A stretch of DNA of 27,030 nucleotides from a virus: positions 1-27,030 of IMG/VR virus record IMGVR_UViG_3300032331_003377; one strand, written 5' to 3'. Shown here piece by piece: positions 8,912-27,030 of this stretch (position 1 is the first letter of the stretch; each line of letters begins with the position of its first letter). The notes beneath the pieces were generated by a model that worked only from the letters and a program-made list of their open reading frames with translations, made no database searches and was not told the DNA's origin. The translations under genes and the position numbers were made by a program.

Positions 8912-9511
8912 ATGAACTTAGATAAATTAAAAAGACACATACCTGATGTTGTTATAGCACAACTACCAGATACAATTACTAAATTTGAATTAAATACTCC
9001 TTTACGACTAGCACATTTTTTGGCGCAAGCTGGCCATGAATCAGGCGGATTTAAAGCGTTAAACGAAAATTTAAATTACGGCGCGAAAGGATTAGTGACC
9101 ACGTTTAAAAAATATTTTCCAACAGAAGATTTAGCTAAGCAATATGAAAGAAAGCCTGAAAAAATAGCTAATAGGGTGTATGGTGGTAGAATGGGTAATG
9201 GTGAAGAAATAACAGGTGAAGGATATAAATTTCGCGGACGTGGTTATATTCAATTAACTGGTAAAGACAATTATAAGGCGTTTGATGCCGTTGTTACTGA
9301 GTCTATTATTGATAATCCCGACTTAGTTGCTACAAAATACCCATTATTATCTGCAGCTTGGTTTTTTTATAAAAATGGTTTACATAAATTAGCTGATGGT
9401 GGTGCAACAGATGCTGTAGTAACATCTATTACTAAACGTGTTAATGGTGGTACAATAGGTTTACCTGATCGTATTAAACACTTTAAAGAATATTACACTG
9501 CATTGTCATAA
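8912..9511 (+). CDS. GH19 (chitinase-like) muralytic enzyme/endolysin
   Basis: A 199-residue single-domain GH19 protein. Visible family features are HFLAQAGHESGGFKALNENL (35-54) with the catalytic acid Glu43 and the second acidic residue Glu52, NRVYGGRMGN (87-96), and GYKFRGRGYIQLTGKDNY (104-121). Phage GH19 enzymes cleave the cell-wall glycan. No signal peptide is seen, so release would need a holin or delivery on the virion. It lies inside the baseplate cluster and the upstream spike lacks a lysozyme domain, so it may act as a tail-associated lysozyme, as the endolysin, or both. Its first part is more GC-rich than neighbours (GGCGCAAGCTGGCC), suggesting later insertion. Confidence 0.88.
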   Translation: MNLDKLKRHIPDVVIAQLPDTITKFELNTPLRLAHFLAQAGHESGGFKALNENLNYGAKGLVTTFKKYFPTEDLAKQYERKPEKIANRVYGGRMGNGEEITGEGYKFRGRGYIQLTGKDNYKAFDAVVTESIIDNPDLVATKYPLLSAAWFFYKNGLHKLADGGATDAVVTSITKRVNGGTIGLPDRIKHFKEYYTALS

Positions 9512-10656: not shown

Positions 10657-10991
10657 TGTCTAAAATACCAATACAAAAAACCGTATTTAGTAAAGATTCT
10701 TATAGCAGGCTAGTTAATACCCAATTTAGCCAGTTATTAAATCAAGGAGTTGTAGAAGAAACACCAACTTTTACAATTGATGATTTTTTTAGACTATATA
10801 ATCAGTTATTTTATCAAATGCCTAGAGAAGGAGATACTAATTCCCATATGGCTCTTTTAAAAAGAGAAGCTGATTATTTAGGTATTAGTATATCTCAAGA
10901 TGATATTCAAGCTTTGTTAGATGAAATTACATCATTACGTCAACAATTGCTTGATACACAAACAACAGTAAATGAATTGATTAAACAATAA
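10656..10991 (+). CDS. Small helical virion-operon protein, 111 aa
   Basis: Residues 1-40 are polar and Lys/Gln-rich. Residues 40-80 contain an aromatic-rich helix (FTIDDFFRLYNQLFYQMPRE), and 81-111 form a coiled coil (DDIQALLDEITSLRQQLLDT) ending NELIKQ. Both ends overlap neighbours by one base (TAATG at 10654 and 10989), so it is translated together with the DNRLRE-like protein and the 1340-residue protein. A linker or oligomerisation role between them is plausible but inferred. No family recognised. Confidence 0.65.
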   Translation: MSKIPIQKTVFSKDSYSRLVNTQFSQLLNQGVVEETPTFTIDDFFRLYNQLFYQMPREGDTNSHMALLKREADYLGISISQDDIQALLDEITSLRQQLLDTQTTVNELIKQ

Positions 10992-13900
10992 TGGCGGATA
11001 ATATTAAAATAGTAGGTAATATTGTAGAGGTCCAACAGATATCTCGTTATTCTGAGGAAGATCTTAGGTTACTTGCTACTCAAGTTATAAAAGAAGATTT
11101 TGGAAAACAAAATGATTATATTGAATATTTTGTTTATGACGCTGGCAAAAATCTTTTAGATACAAATTATAGCTATAAAGATTTTAAATTACCTACTACT
11201 TCTTATATAGATCCTGTTAGTGGAACTTTACCTATTATAGAAATAGATCCTGTTATGGATCTACAAAATTTGGGCTACTCATCAGGAGAATTTATAGTTC
11301 AGTATAATTTTCTAAACAATAAAATTTCAAATTCAACTCAAACAGGATTATTTTTAAAAGAAATATCTCCTGATAGAACTGAAATAAGAATAGGATCTAC
11401 TGTATTAACTAATGAGCAAATTGAAAGTGGATCTTTAGCTCTTATAAGTGAGGCTTCTAGTTCTTCATATTTTGTTGATTATCTTGTTGATTTTGGAAAT
11501 AATATACAAGCGGTAACAGTAAATACTGCCTTAAATAAAGTTGAAACTGGATATGAAATTTTATTTAAGTTATACCAACCATTACCCCCCGAAATTCAGG
11601 AAAAATCTACATTGTGGGTTGTAAAAGAAAAGGTAACTCCTTATTCTTTTAATATTAATTTAGACAAACTTATTACACCCGCTCCAGGTCCTCAATTAAG
11701 AGGTCCTAATTTTGATATAGATGTACCTAATAGAAATAATGTAGGTACTTCTTACCAAACCTATGGTGGGTTATTAGATAATCTTAAAAATGTATCATCC
11801 TCATATCAACAACTTTTAAGTATTATTACTTCACAAAGTATTGATATTAATACAGATTATAGTGATTTTAATAACTTTGTATTTTTTAGCTCAGCTAAAC
11901 AAAGAGTTGTTAATTTTTACAATAAAGTAAAAGAAATTGAAGATTTAAAAAATACGTTAATAACTTATACTCCATTAACATCTAGCTATCCCAACTTAAT
12001 TACTGATTATAACTTAGTAACATCTAGTATTAATAATATTATAGCTAATTTTGATGGATTTGAATATTATCTGTACTTTGAAAGTGGATCTTTAACTTCT
12101 TCTTTAAATTATGGTATAACACCATATCCTAAAACTAATTCGTTAAAACCATTTCCTTTACAATCAACAGGTTCTGTTTCATCTTCTTTATGGTTTAATA
12201 AATCAACTTCTAGTGCTGCTGATTATGACAGTTATAATCAAAATAATTTAATTTATACTGTACCTACCTTTATTAAGGATGATGGTAATAATGATCAATA
12301 TATTACTTTCCTTAATATGATTGGTCATTATTTTGACAATATTTGGATATTTTTAAGTGCGGTTACTGATATTAATCTAGCAAATAATAATTTAGAACAA
12401 GGTATATCTAAAGATTTAGTATACACTACATTACAGTCCTTAGGAACTAAACTATATAATCGATACGGAAATTCAAATAATACTTTATTTTTAGTAGGTA
12501 GTAATGGTAGTTCTAGTTTTGATAATAATTTTACTCCTACAGGTTCTTATTTAAATGCAATTCCACGTAAAGATTTACTTGCTGAAACTTATAAACGTAT
12601 TTATCATAATTTACCTTTGTTATTAAAAACTAAAGGTACAACTTATGGATTACAAACATTAATTTCTACCTTTGGAATTACTGGTAGTATATTAAGTGTT
12701 AAAGAATATGGTGGTGATTTAAAAAGCCAAATGTTAGATGAATATAATAACGATAAGGTTAGAATAATATCTTCTAGCATAGTAACAGGTAGCGTCTTAT
12801 CACCTTATATTAGCTTATTAGTACAGCCTACATCTTCAACTCAATTTAGAAGAGATGATTTACATTATTTAGATATTTCATTCTCTCCTGAAACTCAAAT
12901 TGACACTTATGCTTCTGCTTCTATAGTTAAAGCTAATCCAACTTGGAGTCTAGATGATTATATAGGTGATCCTAGACAATTATATAGTGCTTCTTATAAT
13001 GATTTAAATACTCAAAGAAATACCTATTATAATTTTACAGCATCAAATATGGACTATGCCGGATTTATTCGCTTAATCCAGTTTTTTGATAATTCATTAT
13101 TTAAAATGATAAAAGATTTTGTTCCTGCAAGAACAAATCTTTCAACTGGTATTACAATTAGTTCTCCTGTATTAGAAAGAAATAAATGGGTATATGCTAA
13201 CCCATCCACTACAGGTAAATTAGGAGTAATGGATGCTAATTTAAAAGGTCCATCAATTAGTACTCAATATACAAGCTTATATACTTATTTAACAGGAAGT
13301 AAAGTAGCATATTATACAGGACAATTTAGTGGAAGTATAATTAATTATGGTAATAGTTGGATAGAAAACAATTTTAATCCTTATTTGCACCCTTCTTCTA
13401 GCTTAACAGATAATGATATCAATGTATTTAATCATTCTGAATATAATGTATTATTAAATAATGTATCTGCAAGTAGATTATCTCTTCTTAGGCAAGATAT
13501 AGAGTATGTATATGGCACTTCAAATAGCATATTAACTCCTGCTTATTTACAAGATTCAAATGAATCTCTTACTACATATCAAAGATCAAGATATGATGGG
13601 GCTAAAGTAGTTAGTTTACAATATAATACCTACACTAGCGGAGCTTATACAGGATCAGATGGAAATTTTATTCAAAGTAGTATTGATTACAATGGTGATT
13701 ATTCATATGGTAAAACAGCAGCAATTGACAAATTAGTAAGACAATTAGGACTATTTACTTTAATAGAAACTTCTTCATATCTTCCTGGGCGCAATAGGGT
13801 AGCTTTAAAATATCTTGTAGATGAATTTGGAGGATTAACAGAATTAAATCAACGTAATAAACATTGGGAAGATATACAAAGAATATTTCTTGCTGGTGAT

Positions 13901-15013
13901 TATTTAAATATTTCTCAATTTGATAATCAACAATCAAGTAATCAAAAAACAACAGATGGTAATAAATTAATTTTTAATAGTGGGTATAGTTATTCACCTA
14001 TACTTTATTTTTCTAGTTGTAGTGTTGATCCTACTATTTATTTTGAAAATTTAGGAGCCATTAATTATTATATAGCAACTGCTAATAATTTTAGTTCATC
14101 TTATTATCTTAGTGGATCTTCTAATAATATTATTGGATTTCCTATAAGTGAAAGTTATGTTACTAATATATTTAACCATGCTATAATAGGTCCTTCATTC
14201 TTTTATACATCGTCTTTAACATCACCCCCAACATATTCGGCCCAACAAACAGAAAACTATCTTGTGAATGCTGGATTTGATATGAATGTTGTTATAGCTG
14301 ATGGACAATACCTTACTGGGTCTTTGCAATTATTTAAAAATGGAGTTTTATATGCTACTGCAAGTCAAATATTTGGCCAACCAGTAACACCAACACCATC
14401 CATTACACCATCAATAACACCTACTAGAACCCCATCTGTAACACCATCATTATCAGTAGGAGCATCTTCACCAGTAACACCTACAACAACACCATCAACA
14501 ACAAAAACTCAAACACCTACAGCAACACCTTCTAAAACAACAACAGCTACACCATCATTAACACCATCAATAACAGTTTCTACATCAGTTTCTGCAACAC
14601 CTCCATCAACACCAGCAGTAACATCAACACCAAGTCCATCTGTGTCATCTGCAGCTGCGTCACCAACCCCATCACCTTCAACTGTACCAAGTACATTTAC
14701 GGTTAACGTTTATGGAAAAAGAGCTGGTGTTATAACCTACTTATTTGGTAACCTTGGCTCATCTAGTATGACTTTAATAGGAACTTTAACCGCTGGAGGT
14801 ACACTTAAAAAGACATGGACTGGAGTTACTTCTGGAGATATAGTATATCTTGTATGTACTGATGGTAGTGGAGATGCTGCGACAGGAGTATGTGAAACTG
14901 GAGCTCAGGAAGGATCTTATCCAACAGCAGGTACTTGCCAGGCATATTTATCTTTTGTTATAACAGCAAATACAAACATATATGTTTATGGAAATGCAGC
15001 TAACTTGTGTTAA
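10991..15013 (+). CDS. Giant baseplate wedge/adhesin protein with mucin-like stalk and Cys-containing tip
   Basis: The longest protein here (1340 aa). A block at about 536-570, YHNLPLLLKTKGTTYGLQTL followed by FGITGSILSVKEYGG, contains the Lys-Gly-Thr (548-550) plus Gly-Leu pattern seen in tail protein I-like wedge proteins. This suggests the N-terminal half is the gp7/gpI-type wedge partner of gp6, which is an inference. Residues 570-1130 are beta-rich and Ser/Tyr/Asn-heavy. Residues about 1131-1234 are an almost pure Thr/Pro/Ser stalk. The last about 105 residues form a compact beta domain (FTVNVYGKRAGVITYLFGNL onward) with Cys at 1289, 1301, 1316 and 1340, the last residue. The layout suggests a receptor-binding tip on a flexible stalk. 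Gene and operon overlap the preceding small gene by one base. Confidence 0.72.
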   Translation: MADNIKIVGNIVEVQQISRYSEEDLRLLATQVIKEDFGKQNDYIEYFVYDAGKNLLDTNYSYKDFKLPTTSYIDPVSGTLPIIEIDPVMDLQNLGYSSGEFIVQYNFLNNKISNSTQTGLFLKEISPDRTEIRIGSTVLTNEQIESGSLALISEASSSSYFVDYLVDFGNNIQAVTVNTALNKVETGYEILFKLYQPLPPEIQEKSTLWVVKEKVTPYSFNINLDKLITPAPGPQLRGPNFDIDVPNRNNVGTSYQTYGGLLDNLKNVSSSYQQLLSIITSQSIDINTDYSDFNNFVFFSSAKQRVVNFYNKVKEIEDLKNTLITYTPLTSSYPNLITDYNLVTSSINNIIANFDGFEYYLYFESGSLTSSLNYGITPYPKTNSLKPFPLQSTGSVSSSLWFNKSTSSAADYDSYNQNNLIYTVPTFIKDDGNNDQYITFLNMIGHYFDNIWIFLSAVTDINLANNNLEQGISKDLVYTTLQSLGTKLYNRYGNSNNTLFLVGSNGSSSFDNNFTPTGSYLNAIPRKDLLAETYKRIYHNLPLLLKTKGTTYGLQTLISTFGITGSILSVKEYGGDLKSQMLDEYNNDKVRIISSSIVTGSVLSPYISLLVQPTSSTQFRRDDLHYLDISFSPETQIDTYASASIVKANPTWSLDDYIGDPRQLYSASYNDLNTQRNTYYNFTASNMDYAGFIRLIQFFDNSLFKMIKDFVPARTNLSTGITISSPVLERNKWVYANPSTTGKLGVMDANLKGPSISTQYTSLYTYLTGSKVAYYTGQFSGSIINYGNSWIENNFNPYLHPSSSLTDNDINVFNHSEYNVLLNNVSASRLSLLRQDIEYVYGTSNSILTPAYLQDSNESLTTYQRSRYDGAKVVSLQYNTYTSGAYTGSDGNFIQSSIDYNGDYSYGKTAAIDKLVRQLGLFTLIETSSYLPGRNRVALKYLVDEFGGLTELNQRNKHWEDIQRIFLAGDYLNISQFDNQQSSNQKTTDGNKLIFNSGYSYSPILYFSSCSVDPTIYFENLGAINYYIATANNFSSSYYLSGSSNNIIGFPISESYVTNIFNHAIIGPSFFYTSSLTSPPTYSAQQTENYLVNAGFDMNVVIADGQYLTGSLQLFKNGVLYATASQIFGQPVTPTPSITPSITPTRTPSVTPSLSVGASSPVTPTTTPSTTKTQTPTATPSKTTTATPSLTPSITVSTSVSATPPSTPAVTSTPSPSVSSAAASPTPSPSTVPSTFTVNVYGKRAGVITYLFGNLGSSSMTLIGTLTAGGTLKKTWTGVTSGDIVYLVCTDGSGDAATGVCETGAQEGSYPTAGTCQAYLSFVITANTNIYVYGNAANLC
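14381..14692 (+). repeat. Degenerate ACA-CCA-TCA repeat coding for the Thr/Pro/Ser stalk
   Basis: About 312 bases are built from short imperfect in-frame repeats based on ACACCATC(A), for example CCATCATTAACACCATCAAT. They encode TP/TPS/SP runs with scattered Val, Ala and Lys. There is no regular spacer, so this is low-complexity coding sequence. Its C content is far above that of the flanking coding DNA, and it can expand, contract or recombine. Confidence 0.85.
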
Positions 15014-17419: not shown

Positions 17420-18364
17420 ATGGGATCATTCAAAAAGCTAAGCAAATCAGACGTTACCGTTGTACCCTATCATGCTAATAAGCAATGGGCTTTTACTAGC
17501 TCTTCATACTCTACATATTCTAACCTCTACCAGGGTACAAATATTAAAGATCTTTTTGTATCATCAAGTGATCCTATAACAAACGGACAATATGAAAGGT
17601 TAGTATATACTCAAATAAATCAATTATTTTATCAATCATATTCTGGTTCTTTAAATACATCTTCTTTAGCAAATTCAATTTATTATGAATCTGCTTCTCA
17701 ATATCGTCCGACCTCTTCTTATTTTATATACAATGATAATGCTAGGTTAGTTAAAAACTTTCCTACAGAATTTGGAGCTACTATTCAAGTTTTAGCTATA
17801 AATCAAGATATATTTGGTAATAAAATACTTCCTTATACATTCAATATATCTTCTTCTAATTATTTTATTTTTGATGATGGATATGGAAATCTTATAGGAG
17901 CTAAAACATCAACTATAGGCCAATATATAAAAGATGGTTATTTTAATCCTTCTGATTATTTTCTTAGTTCATCTAATGAAAGTACTGCTTCTCAATATAT
18001 AGGAAATATTTTTTACCCTCAAGGACTATGTATAATAACCAGTCAAACTGCTTCTTATCAACAAATATTTTCTTACGAAAATTATGCAGTGTCATTTAAA
18101 AATGAACATATTATATATGAACATGAAGTTCGTTGTGTAGTTAAAGAAAGTGATTTTAATTTATCCTATAACCCAACACTAGTAAATAATTATGCTAGTG
18201 GATCTGTAAAAGATTTTGCTACTGGTTCTAATTTTTATACCTACGCTACTGCATTAGGTTTATATAATGATAATAATGAATTATTAGCAGTTGCTAAATT
18301 TGGTAAACCAATGTTAATATCCCCAGATACAGATATGACGTTTGTAGTTAAATACGATACTTAA
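17420..18364 (+). CDS. Virion structural protein, paralogue B, 314 aa
   Basis: The C-terminal part (EVRCVVKESDFNLSYNPTLV, then TALGLYNDNNELLAVAKFGK and DMTFVVKYDT) parallels paralogue A. The N-terminal parts differ: here it starts with a basic GSFKKLSKSDVTVVPYHANK, followed by NDNARLVKNFPTEFGATIQV and YIGNIFYPQGLCIIT. The conserved end may be the shared assembly interface and the N-terminal parts may attach to different partners; that is inference. An out-of-frame ATG at 17416 just upstream is a less likely start because its reading frame would not give this protein. Confidence 0.66.
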   Translation: MGSFKKLSKSDVTVVPYHANKQWAFTSSSYSTYSNLYQGTNIKDLFVSSSDPITNGQYERLVYTQINQLFYQSYSGSLNTSSLANSIYYESASQYRPTSSYFIYNDNARLVKNFPTEFGATIQVLAINQDIFGNKILPYTFNISSSNYFIFDDGYGNLIGAKTSTIGQYIKDGYFNPSDYFLSSSNESTASQYIGNIFYPQGLCIITSQTASYQQIFSYENYAVSFKNEHIIYEHEVRCVVKESDFNLSYNPTLVNNYASGSVKDFATGSNFYTYATALGLYNDNNELLAVAKFGKPMLISPDTDMTFVVKYDT

Positions 18365-18373
18365 AATAAGTTT

Positions 18374-18826
18374 ATGAATAATTGGTTATGGCATCTTGAT
18401 GATGGAAGTCTAGAAATGTTTTCTGAAGAACATACTGCTGGATATTATGGTTTTATTTATATAATTACTAATTTAAAAACAAATAAGTTTTATATAGGTA
18501 AAAAAGCATTTATACATAATAAAAAGAAAAAACTTACTAAAAAAGAAATAGCTGAACATACAGGCGTTGGTCGTAAACCAACTACTCGAGTTGACAAAGT
18601 AGATAGTGGGTGGAAAAACTATTATGGGTCATCTAAAGAATTACTTGCAGATGTTAAATTATTAGGTGAGGATAATTTTGAACGTGTTATACTTAAATTT
18701 GCTAAAAATAAAAAACAACTTACATTTTTTGAATTAGAAGAACAAATAATACATAACGTATTATTTAACGATAATAGTTATAACGATAATATAGCAGGTA
18801 AATATTTCCGTAAAGACTTTGTCTAG
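18374..18826 (+). CDS. GIY-YIG-type endonuclease-like protein
   Basis: A 150-residue protein with both halves of the GIY-YIG signature: GFIYIITN (26-33) and FYIGKKAF (39-46). They are followed by a long basic insert (KKKKLTKKEIAEHTG), then GWKNYYGSSKELLADVKLLG (79-98) and a Glu-rich helix LTFFELEEQIIHNVLF (116-131) where the metal-binding Glu of the family is expected. Phage homologues of this shape are often annotated as Seg-like or putative nucleases, and some are mobile. It sits exactly at the border between the structural genes and the glycan cassette, 9 bases after the preceding stop. Confidence 0.78.
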   Translation: MNNWLWHLDDGSLEMFSEEHTAGYYGFIYIITNLKTNKFYIGKKAFIHNKKKKLTKKEIAEHTGVGRKPTTRVDKVDSGWKNYYGSSKELLADVKLLGEDNFERVILKFAKNKKQLTFFELEEQIIHNVLFNDNSYNDNIAGKYFRKDFV

Positions 18827-18841
18827 CAAAAATTAATTTAT

Positions 18842-18849
18842 ATATTTAG
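18842..18849 (+). promoter_or_regulatory. nATATTTAT-like motif, copy 7 (ATATTTAG)
   Basis: TATATTTAG precedes the ATG at 18853 by three bases and differs from the other copies in its last base. It lies in the 26-base gap before the glycan cassette. If this is the promoter -10/-7 element the cassette mRNA would be leaderless. TATATTTAG also resembles the Bacteroidota -7 element TAnnTTTG. Confidence 0.28.
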
Positions 18850-18852
18850 TTT

Positions 18853-20109
18853 ATGAATACTATTTTTATTTCTATAGCATCCTATAGAGATCCTGAATTA
18901 TTATCTACACTACGTGATTGTATTAATAATGCTAGTTATCCTGAAAATCTAACATTTGGTATAGCTTGGCAACACAATATTGAAGATAAATGGGATACTC
19001 TAGATGACTTTAAAAATAACTCTAGATTTAAAATTATTGATATTGACTATAAAGATTCTAAAGGTACTTGTTGGGCTAGAAATAAAATTCAAGAACTATG
19101 GAATAATGAGACTTATTATTTACAATTAGATTCACATCATCGTTTTACCAAAGGTTGGGATACAACACTAATTGAACTACTAGAACAACTTAAAACTCAA
19201 CACCCAAAACCTCTTTTAACAGCCTATTTACCAGGATTTTTTCCTAATAATGATCCTGCAGGCAGAGTTAATGAATGTTGGAATTTAGAATTTGATAGAT
19301 ATATGCCTGAAGGACCTATATTTATAAAACCTCATACTCTTGAAAATTGGGAAAAATATAATTCCCCTATCCCAACAAGATTTATCTCAGCTCATTTTAT
19401 TTTTACTTTAGGTAAATGGGCTGAAGAGGTAAAATATGACCCTTATTTTTACTTTCATGGTGAAGAACCTTCATTAGCTGCTAGATCTTATACATATGGT
19501 TATGATTTATTTCAACCTCATAAACCCATTATATGGCATGAATATACTAGAAATGGTAAAATAAAACAATGGGATGATGATAAAGAATGGACAGAAAAAA
19601 ATAAAATATCATATTCTAGATATAGAGCATTACATGGAATGGGTAATGTAATTGAAGGTACAACTACTGATTTGTTTAAAAAATATGGTTGGGGAAAAGA
19701 ACGTACTTTAGAAGAATATGAAAAATACGCTGGGGTTAAATTTGTTACAAAACAAGTCCATCGACATACAGCAGAATATAAATTACTACCTGTACCTCAA
19801 GATGATTTTGAAAAAAATTTACTTAATAGAATTAAAGTTTGTATTGATGTTTGGAAAGGAGCTTTAACTGAAACTGATTATGATACTTTTGCTGTAGCAA
19901 TTTTAGATAAAGAGGGGAATGATATTTTTAGACAAGATATGGATATGGATGAATTTAATAAATTATTAAATTTAGATCCACAAGATCAATTCATTCATAT
20001 TTGGAGAGAATATGATGATGATAAACAACCTTCTTTTTGGAGAGTATGGCCACATAGTATTTCAAAAGGATGGGCTGACAGAATAGAAAACAATATACCT
20101 TATGAATAA
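18853..20109 (+). CDS. GT60-like glycosyltransferase (GlcNAc-transferase family), copy 1
   Basis: A 418-residue protein with the hallmarks of the GlcNAc/GT60 family (relatives of the Skp1 hydroxyproline GlcNAc-transferase). IFISIASYRDPELLSTLRDC (4-23) is followed by FGIAWQHN, CWARNKIQELW (73-83), and the metal/nucleotide-binding motif QLDSHHRFTKGWD (91-103), with Asp93 in a D-S-H triad replacing the usual DxD. A second conserved stretch near 202-235 includes GEEPSLAARSYTYGYDLF. The C-terminal 100 residues are a separate module found also in the next gene. It most likely transfers a sugar (GlcNAc by family precedent) to an unknown acceptor in the cytoplasm; there is no signal or membrane segment. 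It overlaps the next gene by 8 bases. Confidence 0.8.
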   Translation: MNTIFISIASYRDPELLSTLRDCINNASYPENLTFGIAWQHNIEDKWDTLDDFKNNSRFKIIDIDYKDSKGTCWARNKIQELWNNETYYLQLDSHHRFTKGWDTTLIELLEQLKTQHPKPLLTAYLPGFFPNNDPAGRVNECWNLEFDRYMPEGPIFIKPHTLENWEKYNSPIPTRFISAHFIFTLGKWAEEVKYDPYFYFHGEEPSLAARSYTYGYDLFQPHKPIIWHEYTRNGKIKQWDDDKEWTEKNKISYSRYRALHGMGNVIEGTTTDLFKKYGWGKERTLEEYEKYAGVKFVTKQVHRHTAEYKLLPVPQDDFEKNLLNRIKVCIDVWKGALTETDYDTFAVAILDKEGNDIFRQDMDMDEFNKLLNLDPQDQFIHIWREYDDDKQPSFWRVWPHSISKGWADRIENNIPYE

Positions 20110-21349
20110 AAAAGAAACTATATTAGTTCACCTACCAGCATATAGAGATCCTGAATTGATTCCTACAATAAAGGATGCATTACAACAGGCTAAATATCCT
20201 GAAAGAATACATTTTGGTATTTGTAGACAATATCATCCTGATGATAAATTTGATGATTTATCTGAATATAAAGAAGATAAACGTTTTAAGATATATGAAT
20301 GTCTGTATGATGAAGCTAAAGGCTTACCTTGGGCTCGATCAATTATTAACGAGCAACTATTAACTGATGAAGACTATATTTGTCAATTAGATTCACATCA
20401 TCGTTTTGCTCCTGAGTGGGATGAAATCCTAATTGAAATGCATAATAATTTAGAAAAAAAAGGATATAAACCCATTATAGCAGGATATTCTCCCCTATAT
20501 GATCCTTTTAATGACCCAGCAGGGCGTTCAATGGAACCTTGGCAATCACAATTTGTATGTTTTTACCCTCATGGAACTATCTTTATTAGACCAGGTTTAT
20601 TACATGGATATCAAGATATGACTGAACCACCAATGTCAAGATTTTTGTGTGGACATTTTGATTTTGCTAGATCAGAATGGGCAAAAGAAATTAAACATGA
20701 TCCTGATATTTATTTTAGTGGAGAAGAAATAAATCTTACTGTTCGTTCTTATACTCATGGTTATGATATATTTCATCCTCATAAAATAGTTGTTTGGCAT
20801 TCTACAATGCGTGAAGAAAGATCTGGTATGTTAAAATGGGACGATGATGCTAAATTAGGAGTTGATTGGTGGGGTAAACAAGAAAAAGCCCGGGCTAAGA
20901 TTAGACAATTACTTCGTGTTGAAAATAATGGATTTGATTTAACAGGATATGATTTAGGAACAGTTAGAACAATAGAAGACTATGAAAAATATGCTGGTGT
21001 TAATTTTAAAACTAAATCAGTACAAAAATATACTATAAATAATGGGTATCCTGCTACACCTATAGATAGTCCTTGGCTTAAATCTTTTTATTATTTAGTT
21101 ACTATATATAGACGTGAATTACCTGAAAATGATTATTCATCTATATTAGTAGCATTTGATGATGAAAATGGAATAGGTATTTATTCTAAAAATATAGAAG
21201 GACAAGAATTACAAAATTTTTTAAATAATGAAGGTCCAATTCATTATGAAGAAATGTTTCAATATATAGATAAAGAACCAACTAGAATGGTAGCATGGGC
21301 CTATAGTGAAGAAAGAGGATGGACTGAAAGAATAGAACATAAAATATGA
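20102..21349 (+). CDS. GT60-like glycosyltransferase, copy 2 (paralogue)
   Basis: A 415-residue tandem paralogue of the preceding gene. Matching blocks are LPAYRDPELIPTIKDAL (11-27), FGICRQYH, LPWARSIINEQ, QLDSHHRFAPEWD (95-107) with Asp97, and SGEEINLTVRSYTHGYDIF. The C-terminal modules also align (EDYEKYAGVNFKTKSVQKYT against EEYEKYAGVKF in copy 1; RGWTERIE against KGWADRIE). The N-terminal acceptor-side segments have diverged, so the two may add successive sugars. Its start lies inside the last codons of copy 1 and its stop overlaps the next start (ATGA at 21346), so the cassette is translationally coupled. Confidence 0.8.
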   Translation: MNKKETILVHLPAYRDPELIPTIKDALQQAKYPERIHFGICRQYHPDDKFDDLSEYKEDKRFKIYECLYDEAKGLPWARSIINEQLLTDEDYICQLDSHHRFAPEWDEILIEMHNNLEKKGYKPIIAGYSPLYDPFNDPAGRSMEPWQSQFVCFYPHGTIFIRPGLLHGYQDMTEPPMSRFLCGHFDFARSEWAKEIKHDPDIYFSGEEINLTVRSYTHGYDIFHPHKIVVWHSTMREERSGMLKWDDDAKLGVDWWGKQEKARAKIRQLLRVENNGFDLTGYDLGTVRTIEDYEKYAGVNFKTKSVQKYTINNGYPATPIDSPWLKSFYYLVTIYRRELPENDYSSILVAFDDENGIGIYSKNIEGQELQNFLNNEGPIHYEEMFQYIDKEPTRMVAWAYSEERGWTERIEHKI

Positions 21350-22278
21350 AGACAAAATTAGTAACAAGTTATTATGCTTTTCATAGTGGTGAACCCTATT
21401 GGGGACAAAATGGAAGAGATAGATGGTACAAGTATTCTTTAGCTTGTCTTTGTGAAATGGGAATAGATATAGTTTGCTATACAGATATAGAAAATCTAGG
21501 TTATAATCAATTAATAGAATTAAAAGAAAAATTTAAACTAGATAATTTAACTATTAAAATCTATAATTTAGCTAATAATCCCTATCAAGAACGAGTTTAT
21601 AAAATTAGAAAAGCCAGCGAAGAAAAATATAATAGCCCGGAATCATGGCATTACTATACAAGATCACCACAGATTTATTGGATGAAATACCATTTTTTAG
21701 AAATGGAATATGAACCTAATATTAATTTATATTGGATTGATGCAGGATTATCTCATACAGGATTATTTCCTTTATTTACTAGTAAATATTATGAAGTAGA
21801 AGGATATAAAAATTACTATCAAAACCATCCTGATGGATTTATGTTACACGAACATGAGTATTATTGGTTTGATAAGGCCTTTACACCATTAACTATAAAG
21901 AGAATTAATAATTTTGCAAACAAAAAAATTGTTAACTTATATAGACATGGAGTAACAGATAATAATTTTGGTGAGTTTAATGAGAATCTAAAAGAACAAG
22001 TAGATTATGAAAATATATTTGTAGTAGCAGGTTTTTTTGGAGGTGATTCTAACTTAATGATACATTATATACAAGATTCAAAATATATAATAGAAAAATG
22101 TTTATCAACAGAAAATTATATATGTACAGAACAAGAAATCATGACCTATTTAAACGCAAAAGATAGAAGTAAATTTACTAATTTTAGATTTGATACTTTT
22201 TACCATGAAGAATGTATCGATATATATAAACCAGATATGATATCATTTTCTCATTTTTTTACTAAAGATTTAAAATAA
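21346..22278 (+). CDS. HtrL/YibB-like putative glycosyltransferase
   Basis: A 310-residue protein with features of the HtrL/YibB (WlaTC-like) family. An N-terminal strand LVTSYYAFH is followed by a long Tyr/Trp-rich segment and YTRSPQIYWMKYHFLEMEYE. The key motif YWIDAGLSHTG lies near 128-138, with the family's Trp-(I/L)-Asp-Ala-Gly; then VVAGFFGGDSNLMIHYIQDS and a Glu-Gln pair in TEQEIMTYL. The family is implicated in lipopolysaccharide/lipooligosaccharide assembly and is predicted to be glycosyltransferases; a reaction is not established for most members. A related domain is fused in the 23907 gene. Coupled to the upstream GT by an ATGA overlap; 10 bases precede the carbamoyltransferase. 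Confidence 0.65.
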   Translation: MKTKLVTSYYAFHSGEPYWGQNGRDRWYKYSLACLCEMGIDIVCYTDIENLGYNQLIELKEKFKLDNLTIKIYNLANNPYQERVYKIRKASEEKYNSPESWHYYTRSPQIYWMKYHFLEMEYEPNINLYWIDAGLSHTGLFPLFTSKYYEVEGYKNYYQNHPDGFMLHEHEYYWFDKAFTPLTIKRINNFANKKIVNLYRHGVTDNNFGEFNENLKEQVDYENIFVVAGFFGGDSNLMIHYIQDSKYIIEKCLSTENYICTEQEIMTYLNAKDRSKFTNFRFDTFYHEECIDIYKPDMISFSHFFTKDLK

Positions 22279-22288
22279 TAAAACAATA

Positions 22289-23914
22289 ATGGCAAATATA
22301 GCTTTTTATGGATCTCATAATGCATCATATGCAGTTGAAGAAAATGGGGAAATACTTTTAATATTAGAATTAGAAAGATTTCTTAATGAAAAAAATATTG
22401 GTTTAGCTCAATATAAATGCCCTAAAACAGAAGATATACTTTTCTTTGCTAAATATATTCCTAAATGGATAATGAATAAATTAAACATAACAGAATTTGA
22501 AAATTGCTATCATTTAAATTCTGATGTTATTATATATGAAAAACATTTTTTAGAACATGAAATCCCTGCTAAAAACTACATTCATAGCTTACATCATGAA
22601 GCCCATGCTGCTGGATGTTTCTATCAGTCTCCTCATCAAGAAATGTTAGTATTTTCTTTTGATGGAGGGGGTAATGATGGAAAATTTAATATTTACCATT
22701 GTATTAGAGGAGAATCACCTAAGTTATTAGAAGCAGTTCTTAATCCTATTAATCGAATTAATTTTGAATATTATGATTTAGGATTTCCTTATATGGTAAT
22801 TGGTCATTATTTAGATGATATTAAATATCAAGACTTAGGAACAGGAAATCTAGTATACCCTGGTAAGTTAATGGGTTTATCTTCTTATGGTAAAGTTAAA
22901 AATGAATGGTTACCTGCTTTTTTAAACTTTTACAAAAGTGACCCCAATGGATTAAATTACCAGGAAAAAATAAATGTATTAGGCGAAGCAATTAATATTA
23001 TTTTTGATCAAGAAAATAGAATAAAAGGAGAAACAGCTTGGGATATAGCTGCAACTTCACAAAGAGCATTTGAAGATAGTTTTTTAGAAATAGCTTTACC
23101 ATATATGAATCAATTTCCAAATTTACCTATTGGTATAGCTGGAGGGTGTGGTTTAAATATTTTATTAAATACTCGTTTAGTTGAGGAATTTGATAAAGAA
23201 GTGTTTGTAGGTCCTGATCCGAATGATTGTGGTATAGCATTAGGATTATTATTAAATCATTTAAAACCTGAAAAACCATTTGATAGCACATATTTAGGTA
23301 CTACTTTACTAGATTTAGATAATTTAACAAATTATATTCAAAATATTTTTCATAACGGTACTTCAAATTATTTAAATGAAGAAACATTAATAGATGATTT
23401 AGTAGATGGAAAAATAGTAGGAATAGCTAGAGGTAGAGCAGAACATGGTCCTAGAGCTTTAGGTAATCGAAGTATATTGTGCAACCCTTTTCTTACTGAA
23501 ATGAAATCTATATTAAATGAAAAAGTAAAACATAGAGAGTGGTATAGACCCTTCGCACCAGTAGTTAGATTAGAAGATGTAAATAAATATTTTGAATGGA
23601 ATAAAGAATCTAGATGGATGAGTTTTTGTCCTAAAGTAAAAGAAGAATGGAAAGATAGATTAAGTGCTATTACTCATATTGATGGAACTGCTAGAATTCA
23701 AACAGTAACTAAAGAACAAAATGAGTGGTTATATAACTTAATAACTAAATTTGAAGAAAAAACAGGGATTGGTGTATTATTAAATACATCTTTTAATGTT
23801 GATGGTAAACCTATATTATCAACTGCTAAAGATGCTCTTACTATACTAAGTACAACAGATATGGATTGTCTTGTTATTGAAAATTATTATTTTAAAAAAA
23901 TACAAAATGGGTGA
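22289..23914 (+). CDS. NodU/TobZ-type O-carbamoyltransferase
   Basis: A 541-residue protein with full-length family architecture. The N-terminal Kae1/ASKHA-like domain begins IAFYGSHNASYAVEENGE (4-21), has ELERFLNEKN, the metal-binding HHEAHAAGCFYQSP (102-115) with His102/His103/His106, and FSFDGGGNDG (122-131). The C-terminal domain carries GIARGRAEHGPRALGNRSIL (about 378-397), VKHREWYRPFAPVV and LNTSFNVDGKPILST. Members use carbamoyl phosphate and ATP to place a carbamoyl group on a hydroxyl, usually of a sugar (Nod factors, antibiotics). Here the substrate is probably a sugar added by the neighbouring transferases. Phage homologues are also known beside DNA-hypermodification genes. It overlaps the next gene by 8 bases. 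Confidence 0.88.
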   Translation: MANIAFYGSHNASYAVEENGEILLILELERFLNEKNIGLAQYKCPKTEDILFFAKYIPKWIMNKLNITEFENCYHLNSDVIIYEKHFLEHEIPAKNYIHSLHHEAHAAGCFYQSPHQEMLVFSFDGGGNDGKFNIYHCIRGESPKLLEAVLNPINRINFEYYDLGFPYMVIGHYLDDIKYQDLGTGNLVYPGKLMGLSSYGKVKNEWLPAFLNFYKSDPNGLNYQEKINVLGEAINIIFDQENRIKGETAWDIAATSQRAFEDSFLEIALPYMNQFPNLPIGIAGGCGLNILLNTRLVEEFDKEVFVGPDPNDCGIALGLLLNHLKPEKPFDSTYLGTTLLDLDNLTNYIQNIFHNGTSNYLNEETLIDDLVDGKIVGIARGRAEHGPRALGNRSILCNPFLTEMKSILNEKVKHREWYRPFAPVVRLEDVNKYFEWNKESRWMSFCPKVKEEWKDRLSAITHIDGTARIQTVTKEQNEWLYNLITKFEEKTGIGVLLNTSFNVDGKPILSTAKDALTILSTTDMDCLVIENYYFKKIQNG

Positions 23915-26210
23915 TTTATTTACACTAGTAGAAAAATATGGTACTGATAAATCACTAAGTGGTTATACGTTTACTTATTCTGATCTATTTACTCCTATAA
24001 AAGATCAAATAACATCAGTTTTAGAAATAGGAATAGGTACTTTAAATCCTAAAATTCCAAGTTCTTTTTTTGGCAACACTCAACATTTTGATTATTATGA
24101 ACCTGGTGGGTCTTTAAAAGTATGGAGAGATTTTTTTTCAAATGCTACTGTTTATGGTGTTGATATAGCTAAAGATTGTATGTTTGAAGAAGAAAGAATT
24201 AAAACTTTTTTATTTGATTCTTCTGAAAGTGAATATACTGATTATTATTTAAATGATTTAACATTTGATATTATTATTGATGATGGAAACCATGACCCAA
24301 AATACCAGGTTAAAACATTAAAAAATTTATTCCCAAAATTAAACAAAAATGGTTACTATATTATAGAAGATATTGGAGGTTACCCAGGTACCGAAGAATT
24401 ATTAATAGAATATTTAGATGAATTTAATTTAGTAACTAAAGGATATCAAGTTACAAATAAAGGAAATCACATTGTTATACAAAAAACAAAGTTACAAGAT
24501 ACAATACCTACTAGTAATGAAAGTATTACATTAGTAACAGGATTATGGAATATAAATAGACCGGGAAGAGATTTTGATCATTATATTGAAAACTTTAAAA
24601 AATTCCTAGATATTCCCCTTAATATGTTTATTTACATACCAGCTAAATATGAATATTTAGTATGGGAAAAAAGGTCTAAAGAAAATACATTTGTTAAAGT
24701 ATATGAATTAGATGATATAAAAACTTTATATAGTCCTTTTTGGGATAAAACTCAACAAATAAGAACTAATCCTGAATGGTATAATCAAACGGGAGAAAAT
24801 GGATGGTTAGTAGGATCACCACAAGCACACTTAGAATGGTATAACCCAATAGTACAATCAAAAATGTTTATGCTAAATGATGCTACTATATGGAATCCCT
24901 TTAATAATGAATATTTTGTATGGTTAGATGCAGGTATTACAAATACAGTATATGAAAAATATTTTACTGATGATAAGGCTTTAGATAAAATAATACCTCA
25001 TTTAGACACATTTTTATTTTTAAGTTATCCATATGAAGCTTCAAGTGAAATTCATGGATTTAATTTTAAAGCAATAAACCGCTTTGCAGGTAAAAAAGTA
25101 AAATATGTTTGTCGAGGTGGATTATTTGGAGGAAGAAAAGAAATAATTAATCAAGCTAATGGTTTGTATTATTCTTTACTTGAAAATACCTTAGGAGAAG
25201 GATATATGGGTACTGAAGAAAGTATTTTTACTATTATGTCTTATAACGAGCCTGAAAAATATAGACGTTATGCTTTAGATGGAAATGGACTAGTTGTTAA
25301 ATTCATCCAAGCATTATTAGAAGATAAAGTTGAGCTAGAGCCTATACCTAAAAATAGAGTATTTTTAAAACCTAAAAATTTAAATACATCTAAATTAAAA
25401 ACCTCCCTATACATGCTCACCTTCAACTTCCCAGAACAAGTTGAGCACACAATAAAAACATGGAATGACAGCTCTTCAGATTGGCTTTTAAAACCGCATA
25501 AAAAAATATTAATTGATAATTCTAATAAACCCGAAGCAATAGAAGGTAATAAATTAATTTGTGAAAAATATGGTTTTGAACATATAATAACAGGGGAAAA
25601 TTTAGGTATTAATAGAGGTAGACAATATGCTGCTGAACATTTTGATAAATCAGATAGTGATTTTTATTTTTTCTTTGAGGATGATATGGGACTTTATTCA
25701 TCTGTTGAAGATGGCGTTTGTAGGAATGGATTTAAAAAACATATGCCTAATCTATATGATACCGTTCACAAAATTATGCTAAAAGAAGATTTTGATTTTT
25801 TAAAACTATCTTTTACTGAGGTCTATATGGATAATAATATTCAAGTATCATGGTATAACGTGCCTCAAAATATTAGAACCGAAATGTGGCCTAAATACGA
25901 TAAATTACCTATCCAGGGTATAGATCCTAACGCTCCTAGAACTAAATTTAAACATATTGACGTACTTAATGAGTTAAGTTATATATCCGGAGACATATAT
26001 TATGCTAATTGGCCTATGATAGTTAGTAGAGAAGGTAATAGAAAAATGTTTTTAGATACAACATGGGCTTATCCTTATGAACAAACATGGATGTCACATA
26101 TGTTTCAAGAAACAGTTCAAGAAAATATTAAACCAGCTGTTTTACTTGCTTCTCCAATTTGCCATAATAGAATATCTCATTATAAAGCAGAAGAAAGACG
26201 AGAAAACTAA
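23907..26210 (+). CDS. Three-domain methyltransferase-HtrL-like-glycosyltransferase fusion
   Basis: A 767-residue protein from the ATG at 23907. An earlier in-frame ATG at 23871 would add 12 residues that fit neither the family N-terminus nor the tight gene overlap. Residues 1-195 are a class I SAM methyltransferase of the macrocin/MycE-like sugar O-methyltransferase type: EKYGTDKSLSGYTFTYSDLF, SVLEIGIGT (37-45), VYGVDIA (82-88), DIIIDDGNHDP (121-131). Residues about 206-480 are HtrL/YibB-like (ITLVTGLWNINRPGRDF; FVWLDAGITN near 338). Residues about 497-767 are a GT-A-like transferase (SLYMLTFNFPEQVEHTIKTW; KKILIDNSNK; ENLGINRGRQYAAEHF; FFFEDDMG near 588 with the DxD-like acid pair). It probably adds and methylates a sugar on the same glycan. 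Confidence 0.78.
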   Translation: MGDLFTLVEKYGTDKSLSGYTFTYSDLFTPIKDQITSVLEIGIGTLNPKIPSSFFGNTQHFDYYEPGGSLKVWRDFFSNATVYGVDIAKDCMFEEERIKTFLFDSSESEYTDYYLNDLTFDIIIDDGNHDPKYQVKTLKNLFPKLNKNGYYIIEDIGGYPGTEELLIEYLDEFNLVTKGYQVTNKGNHIVIQKTKLQDTIPTSNESITLVTGLWNINRPGRDFDHYIENFKKFLDIPLNMFIYIPAKYEYLVWEKRSKENTFVKVYELDDIKTLYSPFWDKTQQIRTNPEWYNQTGENGWLVGSPQAHLEWYNPIVQSKMFMLNDATIWNPFNNEYFVWLDAGITNTVYEKYFTDDKALDKIIPHLDTFLFLSYPYEASSEIHGFNFKAINRFAGKKVKYVCRGGLFGGRKEIINQANGLYYSLLENTLGEGYMGTEESIFTIMSYNEPEKYRRYALDGNGLVVKFIQALLEDKVELEPIPKNRVFLKPKNLNTSKLKTSLYMLTFNFPEQVEHTIKTWNDSSSDWLLKPHKKILIDNSNKPEAIEGNKLICEKYGFEHIITGENLGINRGRQYAAEHFDKSDSDFYFFFEDDMGLYSSVEDGVCRNGFKKHMPNLYDTVHKIMLKEDFDFLKLSFTEVYMDNNIQVSWYNVPQNIRTEMWPKYDKLPIQGIDPNAPRTKFKHIDVLNELSYISGDIYYANWPMIVSREGNRKMFLDTTWAYPYEQTWMSHMFQETVQENIKPAVLLASPICHNRISHYKAEERREN

Positions 26211-26213
26211 TAC

Positions 26214-26227
26214 TTTGCTCAGGCAAA
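26214..26227 (+). terminator. Weak hairpin at end of glycan cassette
   Basis: TTTGC (26214-26218) pairs with GCAAA (26223-26227) across TCAG, three bases after the cassette's last stop, followed by ATTATTT. The five-pair stem is too weak for a firm terminator call and there is no long T-run. It may only partly separate the cassette from the primase gene. Confidence 0.25.
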
Positions 26228-26248
26228 ATTATTTCGTACATTGAAGTT

Positions 26249-27030
26249 ATGGACAATACAGCTCTATTATTCCTAGCCGAATCAGTACTAGGTAAAGGAC
26301 AATCTACAAGTAAAGGCAATTATGCTTTTAAATGTCCCTTCTGTACCCATCATAAAAATAAAATGGAAGTTAATTTGCGTACAACAGCTAAACGTGAAAA
26401 TTTTTGGCATTGTTGGATATGTGGTGCAAAAGGTAAAACATTACTTTCATTATTTAAAAAAATAAAAGTACCTACTAATAAAATAGCAGAATTAAATATA
26501 TTAGTTGTTCCTGAAAATGTTAAAAATATTGAGATAAGTACATTACATCTACCTAAAGAATTTATTTCATTAATTAATTCTATTGAAGATAGAGTAGCTC
26601 AAATTGAAGCAAAACACGCTTTAAAATTTTTAAAGCAAAGAGGATTAAAACAAGATGATATTTTAAAATATAATATTGGTTTTTGTAAAGATGGTAAATA
26701 TGGAGGTCGTGTTATTATTCCTTCATATGATGAAGATAGAAAGTTAAATTATTTTATAGCTAGAGACTATAAAGGTGAAACACCTCAAAAATACAAAAAT
26801 CCACCGGTAGCGGCTAAAGACGTTATTGGTTTTGAACTATATATAAATTGGGATGCACCAATTATACTTGTTGAGGGTATGTTTGATGCATTAACAATTA
26901 AACGTAATGTTATTCCTTTATTTGGAAAAGCAATACATAGTAGATTATTACAAAAATTAGTTAAGTCTTCTGTTGATAGAATTTATATTGCTTTAGATAA
27001 TGATGCTAGGCGTGATGCTTTAAAACAAGC
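26249..27030 (+). CDS. DNA primase, CHC2 zinc-finger and Toprim type (3' end outside window)
   Basis: The ATG at 26249 opens a frame that runs to the window edge (260 codons visible). An N-terminal zinc-binding module is visible: CPFC (29-32) and CWIC (55-58), with WHCWICGAKGKTLLSLFKKI typical of CHC2-like primase fingers. A middle segment (about 110-175) contains ALKFLKQRGLKQDDILKYNI and RVIIPSYDEDRKLNYFIARD. A Toprim domain follows with VEGMFDALTIKRN, carrying the metal-binding Glu-Gly, and IYIALDNDA with the Asp-x-Asp pair. It would make RNA primers for lagging-strand replication with a helicase partner outside the window. Replication genes resume here, so the glycan cassette is inserted between virion and replication modules. 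Confidence 0.85.
   Translation, partial: MDNTALLFLAESVLGKGQSTSKGNYAFKCPFCTHHKNKMEVNLRTTAKRENFWHCWICGAKGKTLLSLFKKIKVPTNKIAELNILVVPENVKNIEISTLHLPKEFISLINSIEDRVAQIEAKHALKFLKQRGLKQDDILKYNIGFCKDGKYGGRVIIPSYDEDRKLNYFIARDYKGETPQKYKNPPVAAKDVIGFELYINWDAPIILVEGMFDALTIKRNVIPLFGKAIHSRLLQKLVKSSVDRIYIALDNDARRDALKQ

Follow-up and report, generated by a model that had tools for sequence, protein, structure and literature searches.

A phage gene cassette with tandem GT60 glycosyltransferases that probably glycosylates Thr-Pro-rich tail proteins

What does a phage glycosylate when it carries its own set of sugar-transferring and sugar-capping enzymes? The question is raised by five genes at positions 18853-26210 of the IMG/VR virus record IMGVR_UViG_3300032331_003377, which was analysed here over its full length and is called the window; at 27,030 bases it is the complete record and probably a fragment of a larger genome. 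An earlier note made from the DNA letters (the original prediction) had proposed that the genes act together to make a decorated, multi-step glycan and had offered three acceptors: a host surface polysaccharide, phage virion proteins, or a hypermodified DNA base. We consider it probable that the phage encodes, in this cassette, a module for mucin-type O-glycosylation whose targets are its own structural proteins and whose site of action is the host cytosol. The initiating enzymes would be two glycosyltransferases of family GT60, and since viruses with GT60 usually co-encode Thr-Pro-rich mucin-like stretches, they probably glycosylate, and so sugar-coat, their own tail proteins. The likely acceptor encoded inside the window, judged from its composition, is a Ser/Thr/Pro tract in the protein g11. 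The features concerned are listed here (HexNAc, N-acetylhexosamine).

18853..20109, plus strand: GT60a, a PF11397 glycosyltransferase and proposed UDP-HexNAc:polypeptide transferase (initiating step)
20102..21349, plus strand: GT60b, a second PF11397 glycosyltransferase
21346..22278, plus strand: HtrL1, a stand-alone GT-A-like protein of the HtrL kind
22289..23914, plus strand: CarbT, an O-carbamoyltransferase of the TobZ/NodU type
23907..24521, plus strand: MTase domain of the last gene, sugar O-methyltransferase-like
24522..26210, plus strand: HG part of the last gene, an HtrL_YibB domain and a C-terminal GT-A domain
10991..15013, plus strand: g11, a 1340-residue protein of the tail/baseplate region and proposed acceptor
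14369..14716, plus strand: the Ser/Thr/Pro tract of g11

The five open reading frames (ORFs) of the cassette all lie on the plus strand (18853-20109, 20102-21349, 21346-22278, 22289-23914 and 23871-26210), spaced by an 8-nt overlap, a 4-nt overlap, a 10-nt gap and an 8-nt overlap; the last frame starts with TTG at 23871, and its overlap is counted from an alternative ATG at 23907. An ORF check confirmed the gene coordinates, overlaps and gap of the original prediction, and domain matches upheld its family calls (two GT60, a stand-alone and a fused HtrL-like domain, a TobZ/NodU carbamoyltransferase and a sugar-O-methyltransferase-like domain) and support its view of a single operon for a multi-step decorated glycan. 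In the last gene it had correctly noticed the methyltransferase and HtrL domains and had overlooked the C-terminal GT-A domain at residues ~493-767, so that the fused gene consists of three parts, methyltransferase-like, HtrL_YibB and GT-A.

GT60a matches PF11397 with 238 bits (2.8e-70) and GT60b with 165 bits (3.6e-48), the Pfam cut-off being 21; GT60a also matches phrog_24687 (1.7e-144), and a sequence search of the PDB found no solved relative of it. A scan of viral contigs returned 246 relatives of GT60a, of which the best 80 are the GT60 loci considered below. The motif Q[LI]DSH is kept in all 81 GT60 sequences (the 80 loci and GT60a of the window) and is present in GT60b as QLDSHHR at residue 95; judging by related enzymes, we take its DxH (DSH) element to be a metal site with a catalytic role. 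Hydropathy shows no membrane segment in any of the five cassette proteins (19-residue maximum 1.28). The conserved DSH motif and the absence of membrane segments fit a soluble polypeptide glycosyltransferase using host nucleotide sugars. As far as the available parts of the sources go, GT60 is the protist polypeptide alpha-GlcNAc-transferase (GlcNAc, N-acetylglucosamine) family that initiates mucin-type O-glycans (PMC8724618, PMC6939170), and its characterised members have polypeptide acceptors (PMC8724618). A literature search, outside which lay all preprints and most subscription papers, found no paper on GT60 in phages.

Genes of the glycosyl-, carbamoyl- and methyltransferase kinds are used for surface polysaccharides as well, and the cassette might on that ground act on a polysaccharide of the host, changing a receptor or excluding superinfection. 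The cassette proteins, however, are without membrane segments, the scan of 19 window proteins brought up no recognisable flippase or polyprenyl-phosphate transferase, and the characterised GT60 members use polypeptides, at least in the accessible part of that literature; we therefore regard a polysaccharide acceptor as quite improbable.

If the acceptor is a polypeptide of the phage, the window offers one candidate. The gene for g11 lies downstream of a gp6-like baseplate wedge gene, a position from which we infer that g11 is a virion protein; it has no PHROG, NCBIfam or Pfam match and is homologous to a hypothetical protein of the Flavobacterium phages immuto (33.5%). Near its C-terminus is a tract, absent from the original prediction, of 116 residues with 24 Ser, 32 Thr and 23 Pro (68% Ser/Thr/Pro, including 16 Thr-Pro and 4 Ser-Pro dipeptides), compared with 24% Ser/Thr/Pro in the remainder of the protein. 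A strict tract was defined as 40 residues containing at least 8 Thr, at least 8 Pro, at least 26 Ser, Thr or Pro and at most 3 Arg, a level that 0/2000 shuffled versions of g11 reach; of the window's other proteins, 25 were tested and none reaches it. Homologues of g11 (32% identical) with Ser/Thr/Pro tracts occur in two records without GT60, L163 and L141, both short fragments.

Across viruses, strict tracts are found in 60 of the 80 GT60 loci versus none of 80 random viral loci, the latter drawn by means of a made-up 14-mer and averaging 8.4 kb in length; when the GT60 loci are trimmed to 8.4 kb around GT60, 38/80 have one. A looser first criterion had been positive in 63/84 sources. Seven of the 20 GT60 records that have no tract in the fetched stretch contain the DNA motif ([ST]P)4 elsewhere in the record, compared with 1/16 GT60-less records that likewise have no tract in theirs. 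The gene directly upstream of GT60 bears a tract in 26/78 cases and the second upstream gene in 9/68, versus 0/78 for the gene directly downstream.

A matched control is provided by loci fetched through the neighbouring structural gene g13, which represent one phage region in forms that have GT60 and forms that lack it. Tracts are present in 11/11 of these loci with GT60 versus 20/69 without (Fisher 8e-6), in 11/11 versus 10/26 where at least 7 kb downstream is present (p 6e-4), and in 4/4 versus 5/34 where segE or primase marks the end of the region (p 0.0017), with p-values that overstate the evidence because the loci share ancestry. PF11397 was absent from the whole records of all 69 controls in a search whose positive control scored 12/12. 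The sets overlap, L084, L108 and L126 being the same contigs as L004, L012 and L011. An alternative that this control addresses is that the cassette glycosylates virion proteins elsewhere, on the capsid or on folded tail proteins, and that the tracts are common flexible fibre linkers in a shared variable locus. The stretch from g15 through segE to the primase does vary between relatives, and tracts without GT60 occur both in the 20 same-locus controls and in 44/49 records found by their motif (below). Against this stand the tracts in all 11 same-locus GT60 loci, the upstream rather than downstream placement of the tract gene, and a bacterial chromosome (contig L438, below) in which GT60 and HG adjoin a Ser/Thr/Pro repeat protein, and on balance we think a different glycosylation site unlikely.

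Several observations weigh against a mucin-type module acting on Ser/Thr/Pro tracts. The looser criterion scored 3/80 random loci, in Arg-rich stretches, and the strict version was fixed after these had been seen. No tract by either criterion, protein or DNA, is present in 13/80 GT60 records, one of which is 219 kb long. Many GT60 loci are near-duplicates, several contigs being near-identical: the 81 GT60 sequences fall into 9 clusters at 70% identity (largest 54), of which 8 have a tract. In the window itself the gene with the tract, g11, does not adjoin the cassette but is ~4 kb upstream of it; homologues of g11 bear a tract in just 4/78 loci, and the two of these with GT60 are one contig. 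Tracts are also found without GT60, in the 20/69 same-locus controls and in a reverse search from Ser/Thr-Pro motifs in viral contigs, which returned at least 80 loci, 52 with a strict tract; PF11397 is present in only 5 of the 49 tract-bearing records searched, three GC-rich ones having been left out. The presence of a tract is therefore no predictor of GT60, and it is the direction from GT60 to tract that carries the claim; with tracts lacking GT60 this common, some may stay unglycosylated or be modified by other glycosyltransferases. The chemistry of the cassette (donor, linkage and product) is a prediction from domain content. Finally, the HG homologue of L438 weakly matches TET-associated glycosyltransferases, at a sub-threshold 17.7 bits (cut-off 27.5).

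TET-associated glycosyltransferases are of the DNA-modifying kind, and this match could speak for DNA hypermodification, with the sugars attached to a modified base; that phage glycosyltransferases can hypermodify DNA is described in work cited in PMC12619734 (available in part). GT60 is, on the other side, a polypeptide family whose genomic link is with Ser/Thr/Pro proteins, and a base-hydroxylating or nucleotide-synthesis gene, which the original prediction had also failed to see, was not recognised among the 19 window proteins scanned, in what is a short record. A DNA acceptor seems to us extremely improbable.

Carbamoyltransferase phages found without GT60 offer a further comparison for the association of GT60 with tracts. 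The ([ST]P)4 motif is present in 1/11 of these phages, which were hand-picked for diversity (GT60 absence in ten comes from a GT60a search of phage records), and in 14/16 GT60 records set beside them, likewise hand-picked, mostly long and including L022, L031 and L041, already known to be positive. The two of these 16 without the DNA motif, L103 and L062, have a tract by the protein criterion. The motif matches in Salmonella phage Munch and cyanophage Sf-FS3 are in each case four overlapping ones at a single place. A DNA alignment of two gene starts was attributable to chance, and no result was drawn from it.

Isolated jumbo phages carry a similar gene run. A GT60a match was present in only 3/50,697 phage records, those of Xanthomonas phage XacN1 and Stenotrophomonas phages RAS14 and CM1, which share GT60, a carbamoyltransferase, an HtrL1-like gene and HG in one run. 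They differ from the window in having a single GT60 and no methyltransferase fusion, and in XacN1 and RAS14 the order is GT60, carbamoyltransferase, HtrL1-like, HG, with the HtrL1 and carbamoyltransferase genes swapped relative to the window. In XacN1 the cassette comprises:

ORF330-334: the XacN1 cassette, with ORF334 as GT60 and ORF331 as an extra small gene

Both XacN1 and RAS14 have a tract in a giant protein encoded within ~5 kb of the cassette. In PA5oct, CBB and Phosso, the gene for a homologue of this giant protein follows that of the baseplate wedge, and in the case of PA5oct the homologue is annotated with mass-spectrometry evidence. All three complete jumbo phages with GT60, which are sisters, have the ([ST]P)4 motif at 8-10 sites each, versus 1/14 relatives without GT60, hand-picked for diversity and not at random. 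XacN1 has ~16 tract-bearing ORFs, counted as stop-to-stop frames with a frame split at 100002 counted once; the count omits two 103-residue ORFs (431-739 and its repeat copy) that look out of frame and reach the criterion only without its Arg limit. In the available part of the XacN1 paper, ORF334 is named a glycosyltransferase and at least two virion glycoproteins are reported, their identity not being stated there; that part names no acceptor, GT60 family or tract (PMC5852040). The XacN1 glycoproteins, the tracts co-encoded with GT60 and the absence of membrane segments favour a virion protein among the three acceptors first offered, and a host polysaccharide and a DNA base rank lower. XacN1 (AP018399.1) also contains, at 124051-133110, six successive open frames, every one bearing a Thr/Ser/Pro tract and three having a length of exactly 435 codons; they are perhaps a tandem family of mucin-like proteins.

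How might the glycan be built on such tracts? Under the mucin-type reading, GT60a and GT60b would add an alpha-linked HexNAc, which is GlcNAc in known GT60 family members, to Thr or Ser in Thr-Pro-rich tail/baseplate tracts, here that of g11. HG, as a tandem GT-A protein, would then lengthen the chain, and HtrL1, CarbT and MTase would form an exchangeable set for its further extension and capping, with no mutual order assigned. The initiating step is backed by family membership and co-occurrence and the later steps by predicted domain function, and the donor sugars, linkages, step order, acceptor and benefit proposed here are to be read in that light. The benefit could be a stiff, protease-resistant and variable sugar brush that tunes adsorption or hides tail epitopes.

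For the chain-extending step, the HtrL_YibB domain of HG matches PF09612 with 45.7 bits (8.4e-12, cut-off 24.1) and the YibB equivalog TIGR02192 of NCBIfam with 44.6 bits, below its cut-off of 264.9; by these scores it is a relative of YibB, not YibB itself. The predicted structure of HG has a predicted local distance difference test (pLDDT) score of 90.6 and a predicted template-modelling (pTM) score of 0.56, the latter leaving the placement of its two domains uncertain. Its top Foldseek rows are LH3 (4.8e-10) and COLGALT1 (3.4e-8), with a root-mean-square deviation (rmsd) near 20 across both domains, and the two-domain architecture that the model appears to have in common with these enzymes is a lead, not a test. 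The C-terminal domain (288-562 of the model) aligns best with B4GALNT1 (Z 15.7, rmsd 3.4, 205 aligned). A search of solved structures with the HG profile found no relative (one row, E 0.78).

HtrL1 has no Pfam match, and at profile level it aligns by hhalign (probability 99, E 4e-18) with the HtrL domain of HG. In its predicted structure (pLDDT 76, pTM 0.81), the best VIA-align rows are alpha-1,3-galactosyltransferase/ABO synthases (1g8o, Z 14.9, rmsd 3.4, 202 aligned) and the top Foldseek rows are nucleotidyltransferases (RmlA, E 5.8e-5, TM 0.37); as the two methods rank different folds first, we claim for the model only that its fold is GT-A-like. CarbT matches PF16861 (222.5 bits, 3.3e-66, cut-off 27) and PF02543 (86.1 bits, 4.2e-24, cut-off 24) and, in the PDB, decarbamoylnovobiocin carbamoyltransferase (9s2t, 1.6e-48), GdmN (1.2e-43) and TobZ (5.5e-42). 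Its 151 bits against the NodU equivalog NF041651 are below the cut-off of 1000, so that by sequence it is a relative of NodU and not NodU itself. The MTase domain matches PDB entries 3ssm (2.4e-15 over residues 24-157), named just 'Methyltransferase' and presumably MycE, and 8ia9, a demethylmacrocin O-methyltransferase (5.1e-14); Pfam methyltransferase models match it below their cut-offs only.

The distribution of these genes among the 80 GT60 loci is uneven. A single protein matches HG over its full length in 65/80 loci, the match extending over the methyltransferase part in 5 of the 65, and carbamoyltransferase and HtrL1 are matched in 9/80 and 24/80. The GT60a-GT60b pair recurs in L004, L005, L020 and L103. 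L004, the closest relative among the loci returned (GT60a 91% identical), has GT60a, GT60b and HG, lacks the fused methyltransferase, and has two other genes in place of HtrL1 and CarbT, one of them a member of the Rhamnosyl O-methyltransferase/CmcI family (25 bits, cut-off 23.2). Because L004 swaps the capping genes and HG is matched far more often than CarbT or HtrL1, GT60 and HG form the core, with capping genes that seem to be interchangeable. A further GT60 and HG phage locus is L073 (5831-6607 and 9971-15404), which has no strict tract in 21 kb, no ([ST]P)4 in its 219-kb record, and a PF13640 oxygenase ~3.4 kb from GT60 on the opposite strand.

Bacterial GT60 loci provide a view of the same genes outside phages. 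A scan of bacterial genomes, which covered close relatives only, found one, the Saprospiraceae contig L438, with UvrB, carbamoyl-phosphate synthase (CarB) and Omp85 genes in its surroundings. Here GT60 and HG lie beside a divergent protein with a (SPTPTTSVSPSNSI)n Ser/Thr/Pro repeat stretch, a secretion-tail domain and a signal-like N-terminus (judged by eye), and the HG homologue exceeds the cut-offs of both PF09612 and PF00535 (GT2). A PF11397 family search was positive in 5/398 bacterial genomes, L438 included, one match being weak. L451 has GT60 and HG in a locus truncated at the contig's edge, a (VSPT)n protein lies ~6 kb from the GT60-oxygenase pair of L453, and L452 has no Ser/Thr/Pro repeat protein within the available stretch.

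In L452 (8482-14285) and L453 (5140-11021), both Saprospiraceae, O-fucosyltransferase, tandem GT60 and another GT domain are fused into proteins of 1516 and 1533 residues, each adjoining a PF13640 2-oxoglutarate (2OG)-Fe(II) oxygenase, sets reminiscent of the eukaryotic Skp1 hydroxyproline pathway. That pathway suggests another substrate for the phage enzymes, hydroxyproline formed in Pro-rich tracts by a prolyl hydroxylase: its Gnt1 is a GT60 that acts in the cytosol, modifying and requiring hydroxyproline (PMC6939170, as available), and two Saprospiraceae clusters do pair tandem GT60 with a PF13640 oxygenase. The oxygenase scan that the original prediction had called for covered one family, PF13640, with other oxygenase families not searched; it is present in only 3/38 GT60 phage records and in 0/10 window proteins scanned with Pfam, and we find a hydroxyproline acceptor very doubtful.

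The phage module, read as mucin-type, has its nearest counterpart in protists, where the GT60 enzymes (mucin-type in Trypanosoma cruzi and Dictyostelium, Gnt1 in the Skp1 pathway) belong to the same Pfam family, PF11397; co-encoded acceptor candidates rich in Ser/Thr/Pro are a further point in common. The Skp1 pathway fuses later steps in one protein, as does the cassette's multi-domain extension enzyme (PMC8724618, in its available part). Unlike the protist systems, the genes are those of phages and bacteria, and the cassette has tandem GT60, a tandem HtrL-GT protein and carbamoyl- and methyltransferase genes. TobZ, NodU and GdmN, and the MycE-type and demethylmacrocin methyltransferases, are sequence relatives of CarbT and MTase by PDB search. 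In mycobacteriophages, virion proteins likewise bear sugars, there on the C-terminal ends of capsid and tail tube subunits (Freeman 2023, as cited in PMC12619734), whereas for the window phage they are proposed to lie on Ser/Thr/Pro tracts and to be attached through GT60.

It is an evenly balanced proposition that true mucins exist in many large aquatic phages and in some Bacteroidota, as proteins whose long Thr-Pro-rich tracts a dedicated pair of enzymes, GT60 and a tandem HtrL-GT, O-glycosylates densely, with fast-changing capping genes (carbamoyl, methyl, further glycosyltransferases) varying the coat between close relatives. If true, prokaryotes and viruses would have their own equivalent of the eukaryotic mucin system, started by the same enzyme family, mucin-type O-glycosylation would not be limited to eukaryotes, and phage adsorption, environmental stability and immune recognition could be affected. 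It would also give a functional setting to the HtrL/YibB domain, of 'unknown function' in Pfam. The analysis puts forward a concrete acceptor for phage glycosyltransferase cassettes of a type that is widespread, one scan of viral contigs having found 246 GT60 relatives.

The rest of the window consists of tail/baseplate-type genes up to 18364, followed by a SegE-like gene, the cassette (18853-26210) and a primase gene.

7038-8894: gp6-like baseplate wedge gene, closest to the Flavobacterium phages immuto (46%)
8912-9511: endolysin-like gene (PHROGs), between the baseplate wedge gene and g9
18374-18826: GIY-YIG SegE-like gene (Pfam SegE GIY-YIG)
from 26249: primase gene, 3' of the cassette

The best PHROG match of the SegE-like gene is phrog_447, labelled 'NAD synthetase', a label that looks wrong given the Pfam match. 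The region from g15 to segE and the primase (18364-26249) differs among relatives (L084-L163) and can hold fibre-like, Ser/Thr/Pro and glycosyltransferase genes. A different gene set is found in Synechococcus phage S-SCSM1 (L003), where 5205-25841 holds four annotated 2OG-Fe(II) oxygenases, a protein O-fucosyltransferase, GDP-sugar enzymes, many glycosyltransferases and a carbamoyltransferase, perhaps a cyanophage hydroxylation-plus-fucosylation pathway.

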